Source: Actinomycetota bacterium (GTDB taxonomy: Bacteria > Actinomycetota > Humimicrobiia > Humimicrobiales > Humimicrobiaceae). From it: a stretch of DNA of 11,120 nucleotides. A program made the position numbers and the translations under genes. This document shows, one piece after another, positions 1 through 7,401 of the stretch (position 1 is its first letter; each line of letters opens with the position of its first letter). The notes under the pieces were generated by a model. That model was not told where the DNA came from. It saw only the letters and a list, made by a program, of their open reading frames with translations, and did no database searches. The stretch spans positions 1 to 11,120 of the forward strand of contig JADHVN010000045.1 in NCBI GenBank assembly GCA_016783995.1, written 5' to 3'.

Positions 1-1066
1 TGAAATACTTTTCGCCTAATTCTTTAATCTTATCTTCTACAGTTTTAATTATACATCTTATCTCTTCATCTTTAAATCTGCTTGCTAATCTAGACTCATC
101 ATAAAGCATTAATTTTCTATCCGGCTTACTGCCCACTTCATCTTCACTTAAATTATTAATTTGCTCCCTTAAGTTACTGGCTAGATCAATTTTAAGGGGC
201 TGCAGCGCTTTAATTTCATTATATATAATTCTTTGAATACCTCTCTGGGATATATCCATATTAAATATTTTTTTAGAAATTATATCCATTAAATTGTAAT
301 TATCTGTAAGTACTGGAATTTCTGTCACCTTTACCTTATTTTCCTGAATAAAGTTTTTTAATTCTTCCCACCGGTCAAATTTTGGATAACTGTCATATCT
401 CTTATCTTTTCTTATAACTTCCCTCATAGTAGTTAATATCTGGGTTGGACTTCCGTAAAAAAAATTAATATCCCTATTCTGAAGCTGAAACTCAATTATA
501 GTTTTTATAATATTATTTACACCTCCTATAATACTTAAATCCCCGTCCATTTTGATTATCTGAGGTACTACAGACTGGTCCTTTTTTTCAGGAATTTTTA
601 AGAGATCTATATCTATATAAAATGAGACACCTTTTAACTTATCGGAAAAAACTATACTTATATCATCGACATTTAATTTTATAGAAAATAATGCCATTCC
701 CCTGCCATGAAAACCGTAAGGGTCTTTTATTCCATTTTCCAGCTTTGAAGTTACTCTTGATTCAAAAATAATCTTCTGCAAATTGGGAGGGATACCGTTA
801 CCGTCATCTATAAAGTAAATTTTTCTTCTTTTATCTTCAATTTTCTTTGTTCCAATAAAGATATTCCTGCTGCCTGCATCCCGGCTATTGCGGAGTAGTT
901 CTACGATTATATCTTCAACACAATCTATGTCCTGAAGGGCCTGTCTCCTTTCAGCTTCTGAAATCTTTAATCTGACATATCCATCCCCTAAATCTTCTTC
1001 AATATTCAGTGAATCTTTTAATTTTAATTCAGACAGAAATCTTTTTATATCAGAACTATTTTGCAT
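1..1066 (-). CDS. MutL-like GHKL ATPase, 3' end cut by window edge
   Basis: The frame is open from ATG at 1066 to the left edge (355 codons, no stop). The N-terminal part has the Bergerat ATP-binding signatures in order. The N box is [11 protein letters not shown] (residues 55-65, with Glu56 and Asn60 as likely general base and Mg ligand). DDGNGIP lies at 87-93, a TSK at 106-108, and the glycine lid [12 protein letters not shown] at 118-129. The N box, TSK and GF-G-G-AL-SI pattern resembles MutL more than histidine kinases. Residues 130-355 are not recognised, and I see neither a MutL-like transducer domain nor an endonuclease motif in the visible part. No signal peptide or membrane segment is evident, so it is probably cytoplasmic. 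The start codon overlaps the last 11 bases of rny, with a weak AGGGAAAG purine stretch upstream, so the two genes are likely co-transcribed and perhaps translationally coupled. ATPase fold is sure; biological role is unknown. Confidence 0.85.
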
Positions 1067-2597
1067 ATTCAACAGCTCTACTTTCCCTGATTACAGTTAC
1101 CCTTATCTGTCCAGGATATTCCATTTCTTTTTCTATTTCTCTCGCTATTTCTTTAGCCAGTACTAAAGACATATCTTCATCAACTTCTTCAGGTTTGACC
1201 ATGACTCTTATTTCTCTTCCAGCCTGTATTGCATAAGCTTTTTCTATTCCCTTAAATTTAGTAGCAATTTTTTCCAGGCTTTCCAGTCTTTTAACATAAC
1301 TTTCCAGCGTTTCTCTTCTGGCGCCAGGCCTTCCGCCCGATATCTGGTCTGCTGCCTGTATAATTACATCTAATGCAGATTTAGCTTCGACTTCATTATG
1401 ATGTGATTCTATTGCATGGCAGATCTCTTCATCTTCATTAAGTCTTTTGACCAGTTCAGCTCCGATAATTGCATGTGACCCTTCTATATCATGAGTTAAT
1501 GCTTTTCCAATATCATGCAATAGCCCGGCTCTCTTTGCTTTTTTAACATTCATACCAAGTTCAGCTGCAATCACACCTGCTATATAGGCAACCTCCTTTG
1601 AATGAAGCAGTACATTCTGTCCATAACTGGTTCTGTATTTTAATCTACCCAGCACTTTTACAATTCCTGGATTTATTTCAGATATCCCTATATCAAAAAC
1701 AGCCTGCTCACCTTCTAATTTAATCTCACTATTGACAATTTTACTTGCTTTTTCATACATTTCTTCAATTCTTGCAGGGTGAATTCTTCCGTCCATTATC
1801 AAATTTTCAAGCGTTACTCTCGCAATTTCTCTTCTTACTGGATCAAATGAAGATAATATTACAGCTTCAGGAGTATCATCTACAATTATATTTATACCTG
1901 TAAGATTTTCAAAAACTCTTATATTTCTACCTTCTCTTCCTATTATTCTTCCCTTCATTTCATCATTGGGTAAATTTACTACAGATACCGTAGTTTCGCT
2001 AACATGGTCCAGTGCACATCTCTGTATGGCCTGAGAAATTATTTTTTTAGCCATAACGTCAGCATCTTCTTTTAACTTTGCTTCAATATTCCTGATTTCT
2101 TTTGCAGATTCATATCTTGCTTCTTCTTCTATTCTTTTAATTAAAATCGCTTTTGCTTCTTCTTTAGTGAGTTCAGCAATAGCTTCAAGTCTTAGTATTT
2201 CTTTTTTTAGCAACTCATCTAATTTTTTATTTTTACTTTCGAGTTCCTCTTTTTTTTGATTTGCTGTTTGTTCTTCCTTCTCCAGGTAACGATTCTTTTT
2301 CTCAATAGAATCCTCCCGGCTTAACAACCTGTCTTCCATCCTTTTAAGTTCGAATCTCTGTTTTTTAGCTTCTTCCTCAACACGTGTTTTTAAATCTTGA
2401 ATCTCCTCTTTACCCTCTAACAGGGCTTCTTTTTTAATAGTCTGCGCTTCTTTTTTGGCATTACTTAAAAGTAAGTTTGCCTTTTGCTCTGCAGAACTTA
2501 GTTTTGAATCTATTATATATTTTCTATAAAAAAAGCCCATAAAAAAGCCCATTACTATTGCAATAGCCAATGTAACTATTTTTATTAACAAATCCAT
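1056..2597 (-). CDS. rny: Ribonuclease Y
   Basis: This is a 513-residue membrane-anchored endoribonuclease that starts mRNA decay; length and architecture match the family throughout. Residues 4-24 form one hydrophobic N-terminal membrane helix. Residues about 30-195 are a charged Lys/Glu-rich coiled coil. A KH RNA-binding domain has its GxxG loop in [11 protein letters not shown] (216-226). The HD metal-dependent hydrolase domain has His332 and the HDIGKA box at 361-366, followed by ESHH at 397-400. The conserved C-terminal domain ends in a [10 protein letters not shown] segment. The ATG at 2597 is supported by a strong GGAAGGAAGG ribosome-binding site 8 bases upstream. The gene sits behind a roughly 390-nt leader with a terminator-like hairpin and overlaps the downstream ATPase gene. 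In many Bacillota rny is followed by a ymdB-type phosphodiesterase, which is not seen here. Confidence 0.98.
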
Positions 2598-2605
2598 TTT
2601 ATAAA

Positions 2606-2615
2606 CCTTCCTTCC
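2606..2615 (-). promoter_or_regulatory. rny ribosome-binding site
   Basis: The minus strand reads GGAAGGAAGG, ending 8 bases before the rny ATG. It is the strongest Shine-Dalgarno-like sequence in the window. It begins only a few bases after the T-run of the preceding terminator hairpin and is outside that hairpin, so any control by the hairpin would act on transcription rather than by directly hiding this site. Confidence 0.8.
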
Positions 2616-2617
2616 AA

Positions 2618-2646
2618 ATAAAAAAGCCGGGTTAATTACCCGACTT
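2618..2646 (-). terminator. Intrinsic terminator inside the rny 5' leader
   Basis: On the minus strand AAGTCGGGT (2646-2638) pairs with ACCCGGCTT (2632-2624) around a 5-base AATTA loop. The 9-bp stem has five G-C pairs and one T-G wobble, and runs straight into TTTTTTATTT. The T-run exists only on the minus strand, so the hairpin points toward rny. It ends about 20 bases before the rny ATG with no room for a promoter in between, so every rny transcript must read through it. It could also serve as the terminator of tyrS read-through, but its position fits an attenuator better. Its upstream arm is also part of the long-range leader helix. Confidence 0.8.
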
Positions 2647-2986
2647 ATAAATTAATTTGCACTAATTAATTTTAAACTAAATATTTCTAATATTTATAAA
2701 AATCTAATATTTATATATTAGAACTACAACTTTTTTGCTCTAAAAAAACTCATTATAAACACTAAAGACAATTTATTTTAAACTAACTATTAACTTACAT
2801 CCTGGTTCATTATTTTACCAGAATTATCATTAGCAACTTTATAAAACATTTAAGATAACATCTATTTATTAAAACCATCAACTGCCTTTTATTGTATTAA
2901 AATTATCTTTCTATCGCTAATAATACTTATCGTAACCCTTGCAAATTAACTTATAAACCAAGTAATTATTAATGCCATTATTAATT
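2619..2986 (-). ncRNA. Structured leader RNA of rny (candidate attenuator)
   Basis: This fills most of the 499-bp gap between tyrS and rny. Transcription from the promoter at 3021-2993 would begin near 2986 and give a leader of about 390 nt. Visible folds on the minus strand are: a closing helix 2968-2940 with 2661-2633 (29 bp, six G-U); a nested helix 2925-2913 with 2837-2825 (13 bp, three G-U); an inner helix 2909-2902 with 2859-2852 (8 bp); a hairpin 2823-2817 with 2806-2800; and AT-only hairpins around 2749-2728, 2722-2703 and 2699-2681. The terminator lies at the 3' end. The closing helix and the terminator cannot coexist. The short AT-only hairpins may be chance in such AT-rich DNA; the closing helix is unlikely to be. 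No known riboswitch or housekeeping RNA core was recognised. It may be a cis-acting leader or a terminated independent RNA. Confidence 0.55.
2633..2968. repeat. 29-nt long-range inverted repeat bounding the rny leader
   Basis: Plus-strand segment 2633-2661 is nearly the reverse complement of 2940-2968: 23 of 29 positions pair perfectly and there are no gaps. All six differences are transitions. Read as minus-strand RNA every one becomes a G-U wobble, while on the plus strand all would be A-C mismatches. The arms bound a 336-bp block. An RNA helix is the favoured reading. A MITE with decayed terminal inverted repeats is possible, but no convincing target-site duplication is visible at the outer edges. 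Confidence 0.85.
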
Positions 2987-2992
2987 GCTTTT

Positions 2993-3021
2993 ATTTTAAC
3001 TATAGCGCCAGTTTAAGTCAA
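2993..3021 (-). promoter_or_regulatory. Sigma-A-type promoter for the rny leader
   Basis: The minus strand has TTGACT (3021-3016), a 17-bp spacer and TAAAAT (2998-2993), each one base from the consensus hexamers. This is the best promoter match I found in the window. It predicts a start near 2986, about 18 nt before the 5' arm of the long leader helix and about 390 nt before the rny ATG. It lies 75-105 bp past the tyrS stop, so rny can be expressed independently of tyrS. Confidence 0.65.
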
Positions 3022-3024
3022 CAC

Positions 3025-3046
3025 AAAATAATCTTATAATTATTTT
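3025..3046 (-). terminator. Possible weak tyrS terminator hairpin
   Basis: A perfect 8-bp stem AAAATAAT/ATTATTTT with a 6-base loop lies 50-72 bp beyond the tyrS stop. It is composed only of A-T pairs and has a short T-run, so it is weak, and in DNA this AT-rich it may be chance. The position between the tyrS stop and the leader promoter is the only support. Confidence 0.25.
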
Positions 3047-3096
3047 TATTTAAAATATTTTAATGGTGGAACAGGTTATAGAATATTCGTGCATGC

Positions 3097-4332
3097 TTAA
3101 TTTTTAGTAATTATTTTTCTAAAATGCCTTTTACCTCTCTGAATTACTTTTTCATTGATATCATTTAGACTAAGTTCCAGATTTGGATCACTAATTTTCC
3201 TGTCATTAATTTTTATTCCTCCTTGAGCAACCAGTCTCCTGGCTTCACCGTTAGATTTGGTAAGTCCTGAATCTGTAAGTAATTGTGCCAAACTTATTTT
3301 TTTATTCTTTATATCTTTCGGATTTATAATATATTCCTCAACTTTATCCGGAATTCCTTTTTTCTTAAAAATTAAATCAAAATCTTCTTCTGCTTCTAAT
3401 GCATCATTTTTAGTGTATAGATTCTCTATTATTATTTTTGCCAGTTTTCTCTTTGCTATTGATGGATTTAATTTCTCCTTTTTTATATTATCTTCAATTT
3501 CTCTAATTTCTTCACTATCTAGTGTGGTTACAAGCCGGAAATAAGCTATCATAATATTATCCGGGATAGACATTACTTTACCAAAAATTTCCTGAGGTGA
3601 TTCATCTACTCCTATACAGTTTCCAAGACTTTTACTCATTTTTTCAATACCATCAGTACCGACTAAAATAGGCATGGTAATGGCAATTTGAGGTTTCTGC
3701 GAGAATTCTTTTTGCAATTCCCTTCCCATAAGAAGGTTAAATCTCTGATCGGTTCCTCCTAATTCCACATCTGCTCCAATTGCAATCGAATCATACGCCT
3801 GCATTATTGGATACAGAAATTCCATAATTGCTATTGGCGTGTTGCTTTTAAATCTTTTTTTAAAATCATCTCTCTCAAGCATTCTGGCAACAGTAAACTT
3901 TGAGGTTAGATTTAAAATATCTTCAAATCTTAAAGACTTGAGCCAGTTTGAATTTTTAACAACTTCTGTTTTTCCAGGGTCAAGAATTTTGAATGCCTGT
4001 TTCATATAGGTCTTTGCATTCCTGTCAATATCTTCAGCAGATAGTTCCGGTCTTAAAGTAGATCTACCGGAAGGGTCACCTATCCTTGCAGTATAATCAC
4101 CGATTATCAGAATAGCCCTGTGACCTAAATCCTGGAACTGCCGGAGTTTATTTAGAACTACAGTATGACCAAGATGAATATCCGGAGAAGTCGGATCTAA
4201 TCCCAGTTTAACTTTCAAAGGCTTATCTTCTTCTATAGATTTTTTGACAATACATTCCAACTCTTCTTCAATTAAAATGTCCTCAGTTCCCAGCATAATG
4301 ACATCCATTTGTTTTTTTAAGTTTTTTTCCAT
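3097..4332 (-). CDS. tyrS: Tyrosyl-tRNA synthetase
   Basis: This 411-residue class I aminoacyl-tRNA synthetase attaches tyrosine to tRNA-Tyr in the cytoplasm. The Rossmann catalytic domain has the HIGH-type signature HLGH (53-56) in DPTSPDIHLGHTVVL, the tyrosine-pocket region with GGTDQRFN (192-199), and the KMSKS loop intact (231-235). A C-terminal S4-type RNA-binding domain covers about 345-405, with NGEARRLVAQGGI (361-373). The long HLGHTVVLNKLRQFQDLGH segment and the length resemble the TyrZ branch rather than the TyrS branch with HIGHL; that subtype call is inference. The start at 4332 gives the expected N-terminus, with only a weak GAAAG upstream. No T-box leader is visible upstream (no GGTGGNACC motif on this strand). 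It is divergent from the PBP gene and upstream of, but well separated from, rny. Confidence 0.98.
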   Translation of the reverse strand: MEKNLKKQMDVIMLGTEDILIEEELECIVKKSIEEDKPLKVKLGLDPTSPDIHLGHTVVLNKLRQFQDLGHRAILIIGDYTARIGDPSGRSTLRPELSAEDIDRNAKTYMKQAFKILDPGKTEVVKNSNWLKSLRFEDILNLTSKFTVARMLERDDFKKRFKSNTPIAIMEFLYPIMQAYDSIAIGADVELGGTDQRFNLLMGRELQKEFSQKPQIAITMPILVGTDGIEKMSKSLGNCIGVDESPQEIFGKVMSIPDNIMIAYFRLVTTLDSEEIREIEDNIKKEKLNPSIAKRKLAKIIIENLYTKNDALEAEEDFDLIFKKKGIPDKVEEYIINPKDIKNKKISLAQLLTDSGLTKSNGEARRLVAQGGIKINDRKISDPNLELSLNDINEKVIQRGKRHFRKIITKN

Positions 4333-4376
4333 CTCTTACTTTCTATAAATACGTTTCTAATTGAAAATTAAAATAA

Positions 4377-4406
4377 ATATTAACATAATAGTCGTATCTA
4401 TGTCTA
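4377..4406 (-). promoter_or_regulatory. Candidate tyrS promoter
   Basis: The minus strand has TAGACA (4406-4401, five of six to the -35 consensus), 18 bp, then TAATAT (4382-4377, four of six). It would give a 5' leader of roughly 40 nt. The downstream copy of the 26-nt repeat pair starts 7 bp upstream of the -35 box. AT-rich DNA offers other -10-like choices nearby, so this is tentative. Confidence 0.35.
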
Positions 4407-4412
4407 TTTGAG

Positions 4413-4485
4413 ATAATTCGAAGACTCTCCAATATTCAACATACAAAATTTTGCGCTACATAATTCGAAGACTCTCAGATATTCA
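4413..4485. repeat. Pair of 26-nt direct repeats between divergent promoters
   Basis: Two copies, 4413-4438 and 4460-4485, share ATAATTCGAAGACTCTC, then two differing bases, then ATATTCA: 24 of 26 identical. They repeat with a 47-bp period and a 21-bp gap. Each contains the palindrome TTCGAA. One copy sits just upstream of the candidate tyrS -35 and the other 13 bp upstream of the candidate PBP -35. No third copy is seen in the window. They could be paired operator sites or members of a dispersed intergenic repeat; two copies are too few for a CRISPR array. Confidence 0.85.
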
Positions 4486-4522
4486 TAAAATAGCCATGTT
4501 GTTATTTAACTAAATTTTGTAT
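4441..4522. repeat. 11-bp inverted repeat in the divergent region
   Basis: ATACAAAATTT at 4441-4451 is the exact reverse complement of AAATTTTGTAT at 4512-4522. The left arm lies between the two 26-nt repeats and the right arm overlaps the candidate -10 region of the PBP promoter. Being AT-rich with a 60-bp gap, it may be chance or a looped binding site. Confidence 0.4.
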
Positions 4523-4527
4523 AAAAT
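4499..4527 (+). promoter_or_regulatory. Candidate promoter of the PBP gene
   Basis: TTGTTA (4499-4504), a 17-bp spacer and TAAAAT (4522-4527) fit a sigma-A promoter, with an overlapping TATAAA at 4520. The transcript would start about 35 bp before the ATG. The -35 match is only partial (four of six), so confidence is moderate. Confidence 0.4.
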
Positions 4528-4569
4528 TTCTTAAGTTGTAATTTAGTAATATTTGAAAGTAAATATTTT

Positions 4570-7401
4570 ATGATGAGCCCAAAGCGTAAAAAACTAGGCG
4601 GATGTTTAAAGTTCTTCATATTTATAGCAGCAGCAATTTTTTTAATTGCCGCATTTATAGGAGTAGCTTTAACTCTATATTATATCAATACATTACCAAC
4701 GCTCGAAGAACTTACTCCCTCACCAATTGCTCAAACTTCTAAAGTTTATGCTCTGGACGGTAGCCTAATTACCGAATTTCACGCCGGGGAAAACAGGGAA
4801 ATTATTTCTTTTAATGAAATGTCCCCTTATATCAAAGATGCTATTGTGGCAGTTGAAGATAAAAGATTCTTAGAACACCAGGGAGTTGATTATATAAGAA
4901 TTATAGGAGCTTTTATAGCGGATCTAAAAGCCGGTGAATGGGTTCAGGGTGCCAGTACTATTACCCAGCAATATGTAAAAAATATTTATTTTAGCCCTGA
5001 AAAAACATTTCGCAGAAAAATTAATGAAGCTCTTATTGCCATTCAGCTTGAGAGAAATTACACAAAGGATAAAATTCTGGAAATGTATTTAAATACCATA
5101 AATTTCGGATCCGGGACATATGGAATAGAGAAAGCCTCTGAAATATATTTTGGTAAAAATGCAAGCGAATTAGACCTGCCACAGTCTGCTCTAATGGCAG
5201 GTCTTGTAAGAGCTCCCGAAATATATTCACCATTCAATGATATGGAAAAAGCAAAATTAAGAAGAGATCTTGTATTACAATTAATGTATGAACAGGAATT
5301 AATTGAAACCGGCCAGTATCTTAACGCATTGGCTGCGCCAATAACCTTAAACGAGAAATCAACTGTTGGCCCTGATCAATTTAGCAGCAGAATAGCTCCA
5401 TACTTTGTAGACTATGTAAAGCAGAATCTTTATAACCAAAAATTTACTGATTATGATGTATTTAAAGGAGGGCTCCGGATTTATACAACTCTGGATATTA
5501 ATTTACAGAAAAAAGCTGAAAATGCAGTAAAAAAAGTTTTCCCTGAAGATATTGGACCTTCCTACTCACTAATCAGTATAGACCCAGATAACGGCTATAT
5601 TTATGCTCTAATAGGTGGAAAGGACTACAGCACCAGTAAATTCAATATTGCAACACAGGGAAAAAGACAGCCCGGCTCTGTGTTTAAAGTACTGGTGCTT
5701 ATGGAATCAATAATGCAGAACTTTTCTCCAAAGAATACTTTTAATCCAAATGGTCCTATTACAATAGACATGGAAGAGGGTCCGGATTGGAGAGTTGATA
5801 ATTATGGCGGACAAAAATTCGGCAGTGACAAGATGTCTGTAGTAGACGGAACAATTTATTCTGTAAATGTTGTTTATGCGCAATTAATAATGAAAGTCGG
5901 AGCTGAAAACGTAGAGAACCTATGCAATGAAATGGAAATTTATGATATTGGAAATAATCCGGCAATTGCCATTGGTGGGCTTGAAACAGGCATAACTCCC
6001 CTTGATTTAAGTAAAGTTTTCTCTACTCTTGCTTCTGGCGGTATTTACCGACAGCCTGTATGTATTTTAAAGATAACTGATTACCAGGGAAACATTTTAT
6101 ACCAATATGACCCGGACAAAAATGAATCAAACCATAGAGTGCTTGAAAAACCGATAGCATACTATGTTACACAGATCCTAAAAAAAGTTATAGAAAGTGG
6201 AACCGGCAGAGGAGCTAATATCGGCAGGCCAGCTGCCGGTAAGACCGGCACCACAGATGGTCCTAACGATGCCTGGTTTGCAGGCTATACTCCGGAAATG
6301 GTCACTGTTGTGTGGATGGGTTACCCTGAATCAAATAAACCTATGGAACCTATAAATGGCAGAGTAGTTGTAGGTGGAACTTACCCTGCGGATATATGGA
6401 GGGAATTTATGAGTTCAGCACTGGAAGACCTTCCGGTTTCAGATTTCGATATACCGGATAAAAAATTAATTGATATTGAGGTTTGCTCTGAATCTAATCT
6501 TCTTACTACATTCTGGTGCCCTGAGGAGACCGTTGAATGGCACATATTTATCGAAGGAGAGGAGCCTGAAGATATCTGTAATATACACAATAAGGTTGAA
6601 GTCCCTGATGTTGTAGGATTGAACTTTGAGGAAGCAAAACAATTATTTGAAAATTTATATTTTGTAGTTGAAGAGATTTATGATTTTGATGAAACCTATA
6701 ACCAGGATATAATTTTTAAACAAAACCCGGAGGCAGGTACTACACTGGAGTCACTCAATGGTGAGAAATTAAGTATTACTCTATATGTTAGTAAAGGTAA
6801 AAAGACTTTTAGTATGCCTGAACTTATAGGGCTGAATCTTAGTGAGGCAAAACAAATTATAGAAAGCCTTGAACTTGTACTGGATAATATAATATATGGA
6901 TTCAGCAATGAACAGCCGATTGATAAAATATTCGATCAGAGTCCTGTTCCGGATTCTGAGGTCTCTAAATCAACCGGAGTAATTTTATATGTAAGCAAAG
7001 GCGAAAATCCTCAAGTCTTGATTCCCGATGTTATAGGGATGACAAAAGAAGAAGCAATAGATATATTAAATAACGCTGGTTTTAATGCTATTTCTGTAAT
7101 AGAGGGAAAAACTTTTGAAGAAAATAGCAACGAAAAGGACAAGGTATTTGCTCAAATCCCTGTAAGTGGAACTCTTTATAATAAATCCCTGGAAATAATT
7201 ATCAATATAAGCAAGGGTATAAAAGTGCCGGACGTTCTAAATATGACTAAAGGAGATGCTGTAACCACACTTGAAAGCTTGGGATTTGTTGTTGAGATAT
7301 CTCCCAATGCTGCTGCTACCGGTGCAGTTATAAATCAGATACCAAAAGCAGATACATATCTAAATTATGGTTCAAAAGTCACAATAGAAGTTAAGGAATA
7401 G
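4570..7401 (+). CDS. ponA: Class A penicillin-binding protein with four PASTA repeats
   Basis: This 943-residue bifunctional enzyme polymerises glycan strands and cross-links peptidoglycan outside the membrane. After a short basic cytoplasmic tail, residues 14-38 form the membrane anchor. The GT51 transglycosylase domain (about 60-235) has catalytic EDKRF (Glu96), QGASTITQQ (126-134) and RKINE (149-153). The transpeptidase domain has the active-site SVFK (Ser370-Lys373), SVN (431-433) and KTG (558-560). A Cys-containing linker (C639, C650, C670) of the kind common in these proteins precedes four PASTA repeats, about 676-742, 745-812, 816-882 and 884-942, each opening with a P-D/E-V/L-x-x-x-x-x-x-A pattern. 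All catalytic motifs are intact. Two adjacent ATGs (4570 and 4573) are possible starts; neither has a strong ribosome-binding site. It is divergent from tyrS and monocistronic, since its only downstream neighbour is convergent. The symbol is a family-level choice (equivalents: mrcA, pbp1A). Confidence 0.96.
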   Translation: MMSPKRKKLGGCLKFFIFIAAAIFLIAAFIGVALTLYYINTLPTLEELTPSPIAQTSKVYALDGSLITEFHAGENREIISFNEMSPYIKDAIVAVEDKRFLEHQGVDYIRIIGAFIADLKAGEWVQGASTITQQYVKNIYFSPEKTFRRKINEALIAIQLERNYTKDKILEMYLNTINFGSGTYGIEKASEIYFGKNASELDLPQSALMAGLVRAPEIYSPFNDMEKAKLRRDLVLQLMYEQELIETGQYLNALAAPITLNEKSTVGPDQFSSRIAPYFVDYVKQNLYNQKFTDYDVFKGGLRIYTTLDINLQKKAENAVKKVFPEDIGPSYSLISIDPDNGYIYALIGGKDYSTSKFNIATQGKRQPGSVFKVLVLMESIMQNFSPKNTFNPNGPITIDMEEGPDWRVDNYGGQKFGSDKMSVVDGTIYSVNVVYAQLIMKVGAENVENLCNEMEIYDIGNNPAIAIGGLETGITPLDLSKVFSTLASGGIYRQPVCILKITDYQGNILYQYDPDKNESNHRVLEKPIAYYVTQILKKVIESGTGRGANIGRPAAGKTGTTDGPNDAWFAGYTPEMVTVVWMGYPESNKPMEPINGRVVVGGTYPADIWREFMSSALEDLPVSDFDIPDKKLIDIEVCSESNLLTTFWCPEETVEWHIFIEGEEPEDICNIHNKVEVPDVVGLNFEEAKQLFENLYFVVEEIYDFDETYNQDIIFKQNPEAGTTLESLNGEKLSITLYVSKGKKTFSMPELIGLNLSEAKQIIESLELVLDNIIYGFSNEQPIDKIFDQSPVPDSEVSKSTGVILYVSKGENPQVLIPDVIGMTKEEAIDILNNAGFNAISVIEGKTFEENSNEKDKVFAQIPVSGTLYNKSLEIIINISKGIKVPDVLNMTKGDAVTTLESLGFVVEISPNAAATGAVINQIPKADTYLNYGSKVTIEVKE

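Follow-up and report, generated by a model that had tools for sequence, protein, structure and literature searches.

In many bacteria, mRNA decay is initiated by RNase Y, so that mRNA lifetimes depend on how the amount of this enzyme is set. Ribonucleases that act on the leader of their own mRNA are known from pnp (PNPase) and rnc (RNase III), where the outcome concerns mRNA stability. Leader RNAs in which an antiterminator and a terminator are mutually exclusive are represented by the T-box leaders and by the L20 infC leader of B. subtilis. RNase E of E. coli is unrelated to RNase Y. The closest described case is that of B. subtilis rny itself: in the excerpted text of PMC10303841, RNase Y limits its own expression through cleavage of its transcript, in the 164-nt leader and the early coding region.

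Here, we analyzed the rny leader present in a window (the whole stretch of DNA under study) of 11,120 nucleotides from an Actinomycetota bacterium of the family Humimicrobiaceae (contig JADHVN010000045.1). This leader is very probably a conserved, structured RNA in which a long helix competes against an intrinsic terminator. From its sequence and predicted folding, it also likely regulates rny by transcription termination.

Within the window, rny is preceded by a predicted leader of 389 nt (2986-2598), whose elements are listed in Table 1. A terminator scan carried out independently of the long helix, termed P1, located a hairpin of −12.5 kcal/mol (5' arm 2646-2638, loop 2637-2633, 3' arm 2632-2624), and the P1 5' arm lies approximately 18 nt from the start predicted by the promoter at 3021-2993. 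The start site itself is predicted, and the promoter scan, which covered 2500-4600, returned 14 promoter-like sites vs. 12.0 in shuffled sequences; measured from it, a terminated RNA would be about 365–370 nt long, in agreement with the approximately 370 nt expected originally. No promoter-like site was detected by the promoter scan between the terminator and rny in the window. As rny comes directly after the terminator, every transcript initiated upstream of the terminator has to pass it before rny is reached. Two more promoter-like sites lie inside the leader, at 2836-2809 (9 of 12 letters) and at 2781-2752 (10 of 12); the latter is kept in loci L002-L005 and absent from L001 and from the 16 more distant family leaders examined. 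This second site, on the minus strand, is downstream of the 5' arm, and RNAs starting from it could form the terminator only.

Table 1. Predicted and annotated elements of the rny leader region, in window coordinates.
Element	Positions	Strand	Basis or remark
Predicted sigma-70 promoter, TTGACT-17-TAAAAT	2993..3021	-	Promoter-like sequence match; predicted start near 2986
P1 5' arm (antiterminator, 5' half)	2940..2968	-	29-bp ungapped helix with 2633-2661; outer part covaries
Spacer helix P2, 5' side, AUUAGCGAU	2913..2921	-	Pairs with 2829-2837; two double changes among six rows, modest support
AUAGAU in spacer, candidate RNase Y cut site (G|A)	2860..2865	-	Top spacer 6-mer in sets C and D; not enriched in the window's family
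Spacer helix P2, 3' side, GUUGCUAAU	2829..2837	-	Pairs with 2913-2921
P1 3' arm, including terminator 5' arm and loop	2633..2661	-	Ungapped helix and folding
Intrinsic terminator hairpin, 9 bp, 5-nt loop	2624..2646	-	Terminator scan; covariation; U-rich tail 2623-2618
rny ribosome-binding site, GGAAGGAAGG	2606..2615	-	Sequence
rny, RNase Y, 513 aa	1056..2597	-	TIGR03319, 714.7 bits vs. cut-off 454.35
tyrS, upstream neighbor, outside the element	3097..4332	-	TIGR00234

With regard to the gene neighborhood, tyrS was found upstream of rny by tblastn in 9 of 30 relatives' loci, some of which are cut short. Among loci of the same genus, the stretch between tyrS and the rny leader is different and longer in L004 and L005 than in L001 and L002, promoter and leader being kept. 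The gene downstream of rny (2-1072, minus strand) overlaps the end of rny and resembles, by eye, a GHKL-type ATPase. In the drafts G024 (C121:62739-64139) and G034 (L013), rny is seemingly broken or frame-shifted, with matches in pieces or one internal TAA, which may be an assembly error.

The longest ungapped helix that the 389-nt leader can form joins 2968-2940 to 2661-2633 through 29 pairs (24 Watson-Crick and five G-U). In 1000 dinucleotide shuffles, the longest helix averaged 13.6 pairs and reached 22 at most, and none attained 29. This gapless pairing was the core of the original prediction and was reproduced exactly. Because P1 covers the entire 5' arm and the loop of the terminator, both structures are mutually exclusive, as had also been proposed.

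The minimum free energy structure of 2968-2598 (−83.7 kcal/mol) includes P1, with a z of −6.4 and 0/100 shuffles as good. The same energy was obtained for the 389-nt leader, compared to −77.3 kcal/mol when the terminator was enforced. The predicted probability of the terminator rose from 0.03 for the intact leader to 0.92 on removal of its 5' part. Before synthesis of the 3' arm, the 5'-arm region was predicted to be only 0.28 unpaired, being mostly engaged elsewhere. The 5' arm (2968-2958) is nearly a copy of the terminator 3' arm (2632-2624), also in relatives (family form UUGCUUGAUUU vs. GCUCGAUUU); it carries U for C of the terminator 3' arm and pairs to the same strand via weaker G-U pairs.

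Covariation in the window's family was determined on an alignment (A2) of 23 of the 28 family leaders, representing 18 distinct rows, with L009 and L013 (register displaced by a one-base bulge), L014 and L022 (P1 not found) and L018 (contig ends) omitted. The outer 11 pairs of P1, located on the terminator arm and loop, were paired in 96.0% of cells and contained nine double-change cells, a number reached in 0/500 shuffles, and slid partners lowered the pairing to 20–57%. The terminator was 99.4% paired, with 19 double-change cells. In one column, the 5' arm, the terminator 5' arm and the terminator 3' arm change together, being G:C:G in 10 rows and A:U:A in eight, which, as judged from the aligned sequences, is the behavior expected of two helices competing for one strand.

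An RNAalifold consensus of the f20-type set (eight rows) held a P1 composed of two segments (19 pairs in total, paired at 98.1 and 89.6%) together with a spacer hairpin whose loop reads ACAUAGAUU in seven of the eight rows and ACAUAAAUU in the remaining one. The whole f20-type structure gathered 12 double-change cells vs. 5.7 in shuffles, row relatedness inflating this as well as the preceding double-change counts. Pairs with any double change were not beyond shuffles, as 77/500 reached the value of the family P1, 66/500 that of the terminator and 44/500 that of the f20-type set. In the spacer, helix P2 received modest support in the family (43/500 shuffles as good), as assessed on an alignment (A8) whose six rows represent 12 leaders with a P2 motif plain by eye. 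The MAFFT alignments A3, A4 and A5, which aligned the spacers or L203 poorly, were kept out of covariation, and alignment A7, fitted to the model and containing one antisense L118 match, was not counted.

For the analysis of conservation, rny was sought in 61 relatives (52 matched), in the family (31/35 genomes), in the class (36/40), in a phylum sample (146/198) and in a Bacillota sample drawn around L054 (144/149). Upstream regions, each genome being used once, were assigned to set A (the window's family, n = 28), set B (class outside the family, n = 5), set C (other families of the phylum, n = 69, including 40 extra regions chosen at one or a few per family) and set D (Bacillota, n = 70; the first 30 plus the next 40 of 114 further matched genomes, which leans to those closest to L054). 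From set A, L019 and L029 were excluded because their gene starts lie off the contig, L111 because it shares its genome with L132, and L112 because its gene is not rny. The second copies of the duplicate genomes G037 (L113, L217) and G054 (L117, L210) were removed in a recount, and one more Bacillota leader pair is identical. Assignment of the phylum to Actinomycetota agrees with the occurrence of WhiB, which among 14 control genomes gave a signal in Corynebacterium glutamicum only: it was present in five of 10 phylum genomes tested (those of 3.1–9.2 Mb) and missing from the five smaller ones, G001 included.

A predicted promoter (at least 9 of 12 letters, 60–450 nt upstream of a terminator that sits just before rny) together with a terminator directly preceded rny in 24/28, 4/5, 37/69 and 57/70 regions of sets A, B, C and D, respectively, where terminator absences are upper limits, as the terminator rule misses weak or GC-rich hairpins. 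When these leaders were folded up to the terminator loop, at least 12 pairs between their first 55 and last 45 nt were observed in 24/24, 2/4, 32/37 and 53/57 cases, compared to 25, 24, 33 and 34% of dinucleotide shuffles. A control with reversed sequences (at least 12 pairs in 23/24, 2/5, 28/38 and 53/57) was uninformative, since reversal keeps pairing. At least three pairs into the terminator arm or loop were found in 24/24, 4/4, 32/37 and 56/57 leaders (116/122 overall), and mean folding z values were −4.5, −3.2, −3.3 and −3.8. A leader's own ends beat ends swapped between species, ranking in the best 10%, in 14/24, 1/5, 20/38 and 42/57 cases (two duplicates included). A stricter local-duplex test of the terminator region against all upstream sequence, scored with shuffles, gave z < −2 in 23/27 and 3/5, but in only 13/50 and 29/64, of sets A, B, C and D, which counts against the attenuator reading outside the family. 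The expectation that the arms would be conserved and covary in relatives was borne out, with arms, terminator and promoter kept not only in the window's family but also in Bacillota and in other families of its phylum.

A clear predicted switch, with a terminator probability below 0.2 in the intact leader and above 0.8 in the cut one, was obtained for 14/24 leaders in set A, compared to 0/4, 5/37 and 6/57 in sets B, C and D (11/98 outside the family). Median predicted terminator probabilities of intact leaders were 0.08, 0.58, 0.74 and 0.86 in sets A to D, and 0.93 after the cut in set A, where shuffling of the part 5' of the 3' arm also gave 0.93. In most family leaders P1 spans the whole terminator arm, while outside the family it often reaches only the terminator base or loop. 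The earlier view of P1 as an antiterminator by default fits the window's family and fits less well elsewhere. Within the family, where P1 usually prevails in the predictions, transcription is expected to read through by default and to terminate once the 5' arm is lost or occupied. In sets B, C and D, intact leaders favor the terminator at equilibrium, so that P1, unless the order of folding is decisive, could do no more than weaken or delay termination; antitermination there would have to be kinetic or aided. The low counts of predicted switches outside the family are, on this folding model, the main result against one uniform mechanism; they slightly lower the standing of the best explanation given below and slightly raise that of a structural clamp.

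Leader length from the −10 box to the terminator ranges from 61 to 414 nt, the spacer sequence is widely variable, and the middle of the leader is poorly conserved between genera. Among 79 further loci, 43 were without a terminator by the rule, 11 had a terminator without a promoter and 25 had both signals. The 43 terminator-less loci include 7/7 Bacilli (e.g., Paenibacillus, Anoxybacillus and Gracilibacillus) and several Lachnospiraceae and Oscillospiraceae. Of the 25 two-signal loci, 18 showed at least 12 end pairs, counted with no shuffle comparison, and eight showed at least 25 (L040, L043, L048, L053 from Desulfosporosinus, L054 from Peptococcaceae, L062, L099 from Moorella and L105). The arrangement of promoter, arms and terminator before rny is widespread, not universal. 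A minimal form was noticed in the Bacillota loci L153, L157 and L158, with a leader of about 93 nt in which one hairpin is directly followed by the terminator (folded for L153). Another Bacillota subtype (L040, L053, L171 and L177) has an ACUGG-type terminator, not a CCGAG-type one, and a 5' arm of GUCUCUG or similar, the arms matching by eye.

The specificity of the element for rny was addressed with a covariance model of the f20 form (R1), which gave 13 matches at E ≤ 0.01 in the 198 phylum genomes, one per genome and 13/13 directly before rny, a specificity that applies to the f20-like form only, given that R1 fails to reach the window's family. Eight matches are the model's own rows, and five are new, from families f6, f24, f34 and f55 and from another f20 genus, two of them at E 3.2e-6 or better and three at 0.006–0.009. 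On both strands of 75 loci plus the window (677,028 bases), 65/69 rny leaders had at least 12 end pairs and three into the terminator, in contrast with 0/5 other promoter–terminator combinations with a long helix reaching the terminator, a small control in which the L216 combination joins a different promoter to the rny terminator and the L148 one ends inside the rny leader. At the DNA level, five same-genus genomes each contain a single near full-length match to the window leader, located at rny, and a sixth genome has a match of 66%, likewise at rny. The remaining 17 matches in the 35 family genomes cover 24–98 bases, five of them at rny leaders.

No Rfam family reached its gathering score in the window and 14 loci. 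Sub-threshold matches were mir-644 (24 bits vs. 96, E 0.0095) and bglG-cis-reg (16.2 vs. 80) in the window region and four matches in 11 loci, all to unrelated families, and a known Rfam RNA (6S, riboswitch, T-box or ribosomal-protein leader) was rejected as an identity. A literature search by titles and abstract openings, which mostly does not cover subscription papers, retrieved no published account of this rny terminator/antiterminator leader. According to both searches, a conserved terminator/antiterminator in the rny leader over two phyla is undescribed, as the original prediction had stated for an element of this kind. As a probable transcription attenuator, the rny leader would be a device of a known kind, here placed before the gene of a ribonuclease whose described autoregulation operates through mRNA decay, and it is undescribed as far as searched.

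Other identities were also discarded. A leader-peptide attenuator was rejected since 9/9 family leaders examined contain no ORF of at least eight codons with a simple ribosome-binding motif. A pairing between the P1 3' arm and the ribosome-binding site of rny can be drawn by eye for the window, but L007 does not keep it, and it was dropped. A MITE or inverted-repeat element was rejected on the finding of no copies at unrelated sites in 35 genomes.

The leader has two features of an intrinsic-terminator attenuator, namely a terminator between the (predicted) promoter and the start codon, and an alternative helix that excludes this terminator. The best explanation, which we rate at close to an even chance, is a conserved, rny-specific transcription attenuator with RNase Y probably cutting the nascent spacer; RNase Y cleavage as the trigger is itself a tentative proposal. 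The 5' arm is transcribed first, followed by the spacer, the P1 3' arm and, last, the 3' arm of the terminator. As long as the nascent leader is intact, the P1 3' arm would join the waiting 5' arm before the terminator 3' arm exists, which would result in read-through into rny. With RNase Y in excess, the nascent spacer would be cut; it is often A/U-rich and carries AUAGAU, which includes a G|A site, in about 40% of relatives outside the family. The 5' arm would then be lost, the terminator would form and rny expression would fall. Whole or cut, the leader would report RNase Y activity. In a broader form, which we judge somewhat less likely than not, this would be a nuclease-activity attenuator, ancient and common to Actinomycetota and Bacillota, in which the ~60–400 nt between the arms must remain uncut during the passage of RNA polymerase for rny transcription to continue and would act as a real-time gauge of RNase Y activity, translated into termination.

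RNase Y is proposed as the signal because the model matches only at rny, and because a long and variable gap between the arms suits a bait better than an aptamer. AUAGAU was the most enriched spacer 6-mer in set C (16/38 vs. 0.9 expected) and set D (18/47 vs. 2.8). It is located about 45–57 nt after the −10 box in many Bacillota leaders and is predicted to be more unpaired than comparable 6-mers (0.52 vs. 0.40, p 0.002, 46 sites). This enrichment is absent in family set A (7/24 vs. 5.3 expected), the window having one copy (2865-2860). The excerpted text of PMC11780869 describes B. subtilis RNase Y sites as favoring G|A with U upstream, within a weak consensus, and reports that, at a tested site, mutation of the −1 G had no effect. 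Further, RNase Y is membrane-anchored (excerpt of PMC11313650) and must therefore reach the nascent RNA, which argues against fast cutting. Conserved helices in some spacers count against the reading of the spacer as a cut bait, since a passive spacer would not need them. Two features of the window also count against the best explanation: the inner promoter-like site at 2781-2752, which would yield RNAs devoid of the 5' arm, and the predicted engagement of most of the 5'-arm region elsewhere before the 3' arm is made.

The same antiterminator/terminator switch could respond to another sensor, either a bound protein (a non-cutting RNase Y, another RNA-decay factor or RNA polymerase) or a small molecule recognized by the spacer. 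Many metabolite riboswitches are not confined to one gene, in contrast with the subtype model, which matches at rny only. Moreover, leaders differ greatly in length (61 to 414 nt) and in spacer sequence, and the Bacillota form of about 93 nt (L153, L157 and L158) leaves scant space for an aptamer. This alternative is unlikely in our judgment but deserves serious consideration, as some spacer helices show conservation (P2 within part of the family, the ACAUAGAUU hairpin in the f20 type), and as the B. subtilis rny mRNA is enriched ~64-fold on RNA polymerase in the excerpted text of PMC11077062, an observation of possible relevance to the present leader type. P1 could also be mainly an mRNA-stabilizing or structural clamp that hides the 5' end, with the terminator setting a fixed basal read-through and the overlap having no regulatory role. 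P1 indeed links the region just past the predicted start to the terminator, and outside the family it often touches only the base or loop of a terminator that stands at equilibrium. However, P1 covers the whole terminator arm in most family leaders, with three co-changing strands, and in 116 of the 122 leaders carrying both signals three pairs or more extend into the terminator, which renders a mere clamp rather improbable.

Many small RNAs have their own promoter, their own terminator and paired ends, and the region with its own predicted promoter, own terminator and paired ends might accordingly be a stand-alone non-coding RNA gene that happens to precede rny. We consider this quite improbable, given that no Rfam match was above cut-off, that rny follows the model matches in 13/13 cases, that the window has no promoter-like site between terminator and rny, and that conservation between genera is poor in its middle part. 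A MITE-like mobile element with terminal inverted repeats would also present two inverted arms, which are here separated by about 300 bases. Against this stand the single near full-length match per genome, at rny, in the five same-genus genomes and the 66% match at rny in the sixth, the shortness of the other 17 matches (24–98 bases, five at rny leaders) and the conservation of promoter and terminator, and we regard a mobile element as scarcely credible.

If cutting of the nascent leader by RNase Y is indeed the trigger of the proposed rny attenuator, it would represent a feedback principle by which the activity of an enzyme on the RNA itself sets termination. In B. subtilis rny, as proposed here, the leader of the RNase gene serves its own control; there, RNase Y cuts the leader and lowers its own expression (excerpt of PMC10303841). 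That leader works via mRNA decay together with RNase J1, and the excerpted text of PMC10303841 mentions neither a terminator nor attenuation, whereas the window has a terminator. By the rule, 7/7 Bacilli loci were without a terminator before rny, unlike the window. The 5' UTR of E. coli rne (RNase E) is likewise a case of a major endonuclease tuned through the structured leader of its own mRNA. It functions by stem-loop recognition and mRNA decay in the excerpts of PMC3997798 and PMC10303841, with no terminator/antiterminator choice, unlike the window leader, and a term search of PMC7815308, which deals with 5' UTR termination in E. coli, showed no mention of rne in the text covered. The pnp and rnc leaders share with the proposal for rny that a ribonuclease acts on its own leader, the outcome there being stability and not termination. 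Finally, the T-box and L20 infC leaders share the alternative-helix logic with the rny leader, which has no Rfam match at cut-off. In contrast to both, the rny antiterminator joins the predicted 5' end of the transcript to the terminator across up to about 400 nt, and the gene it precedes is rny.
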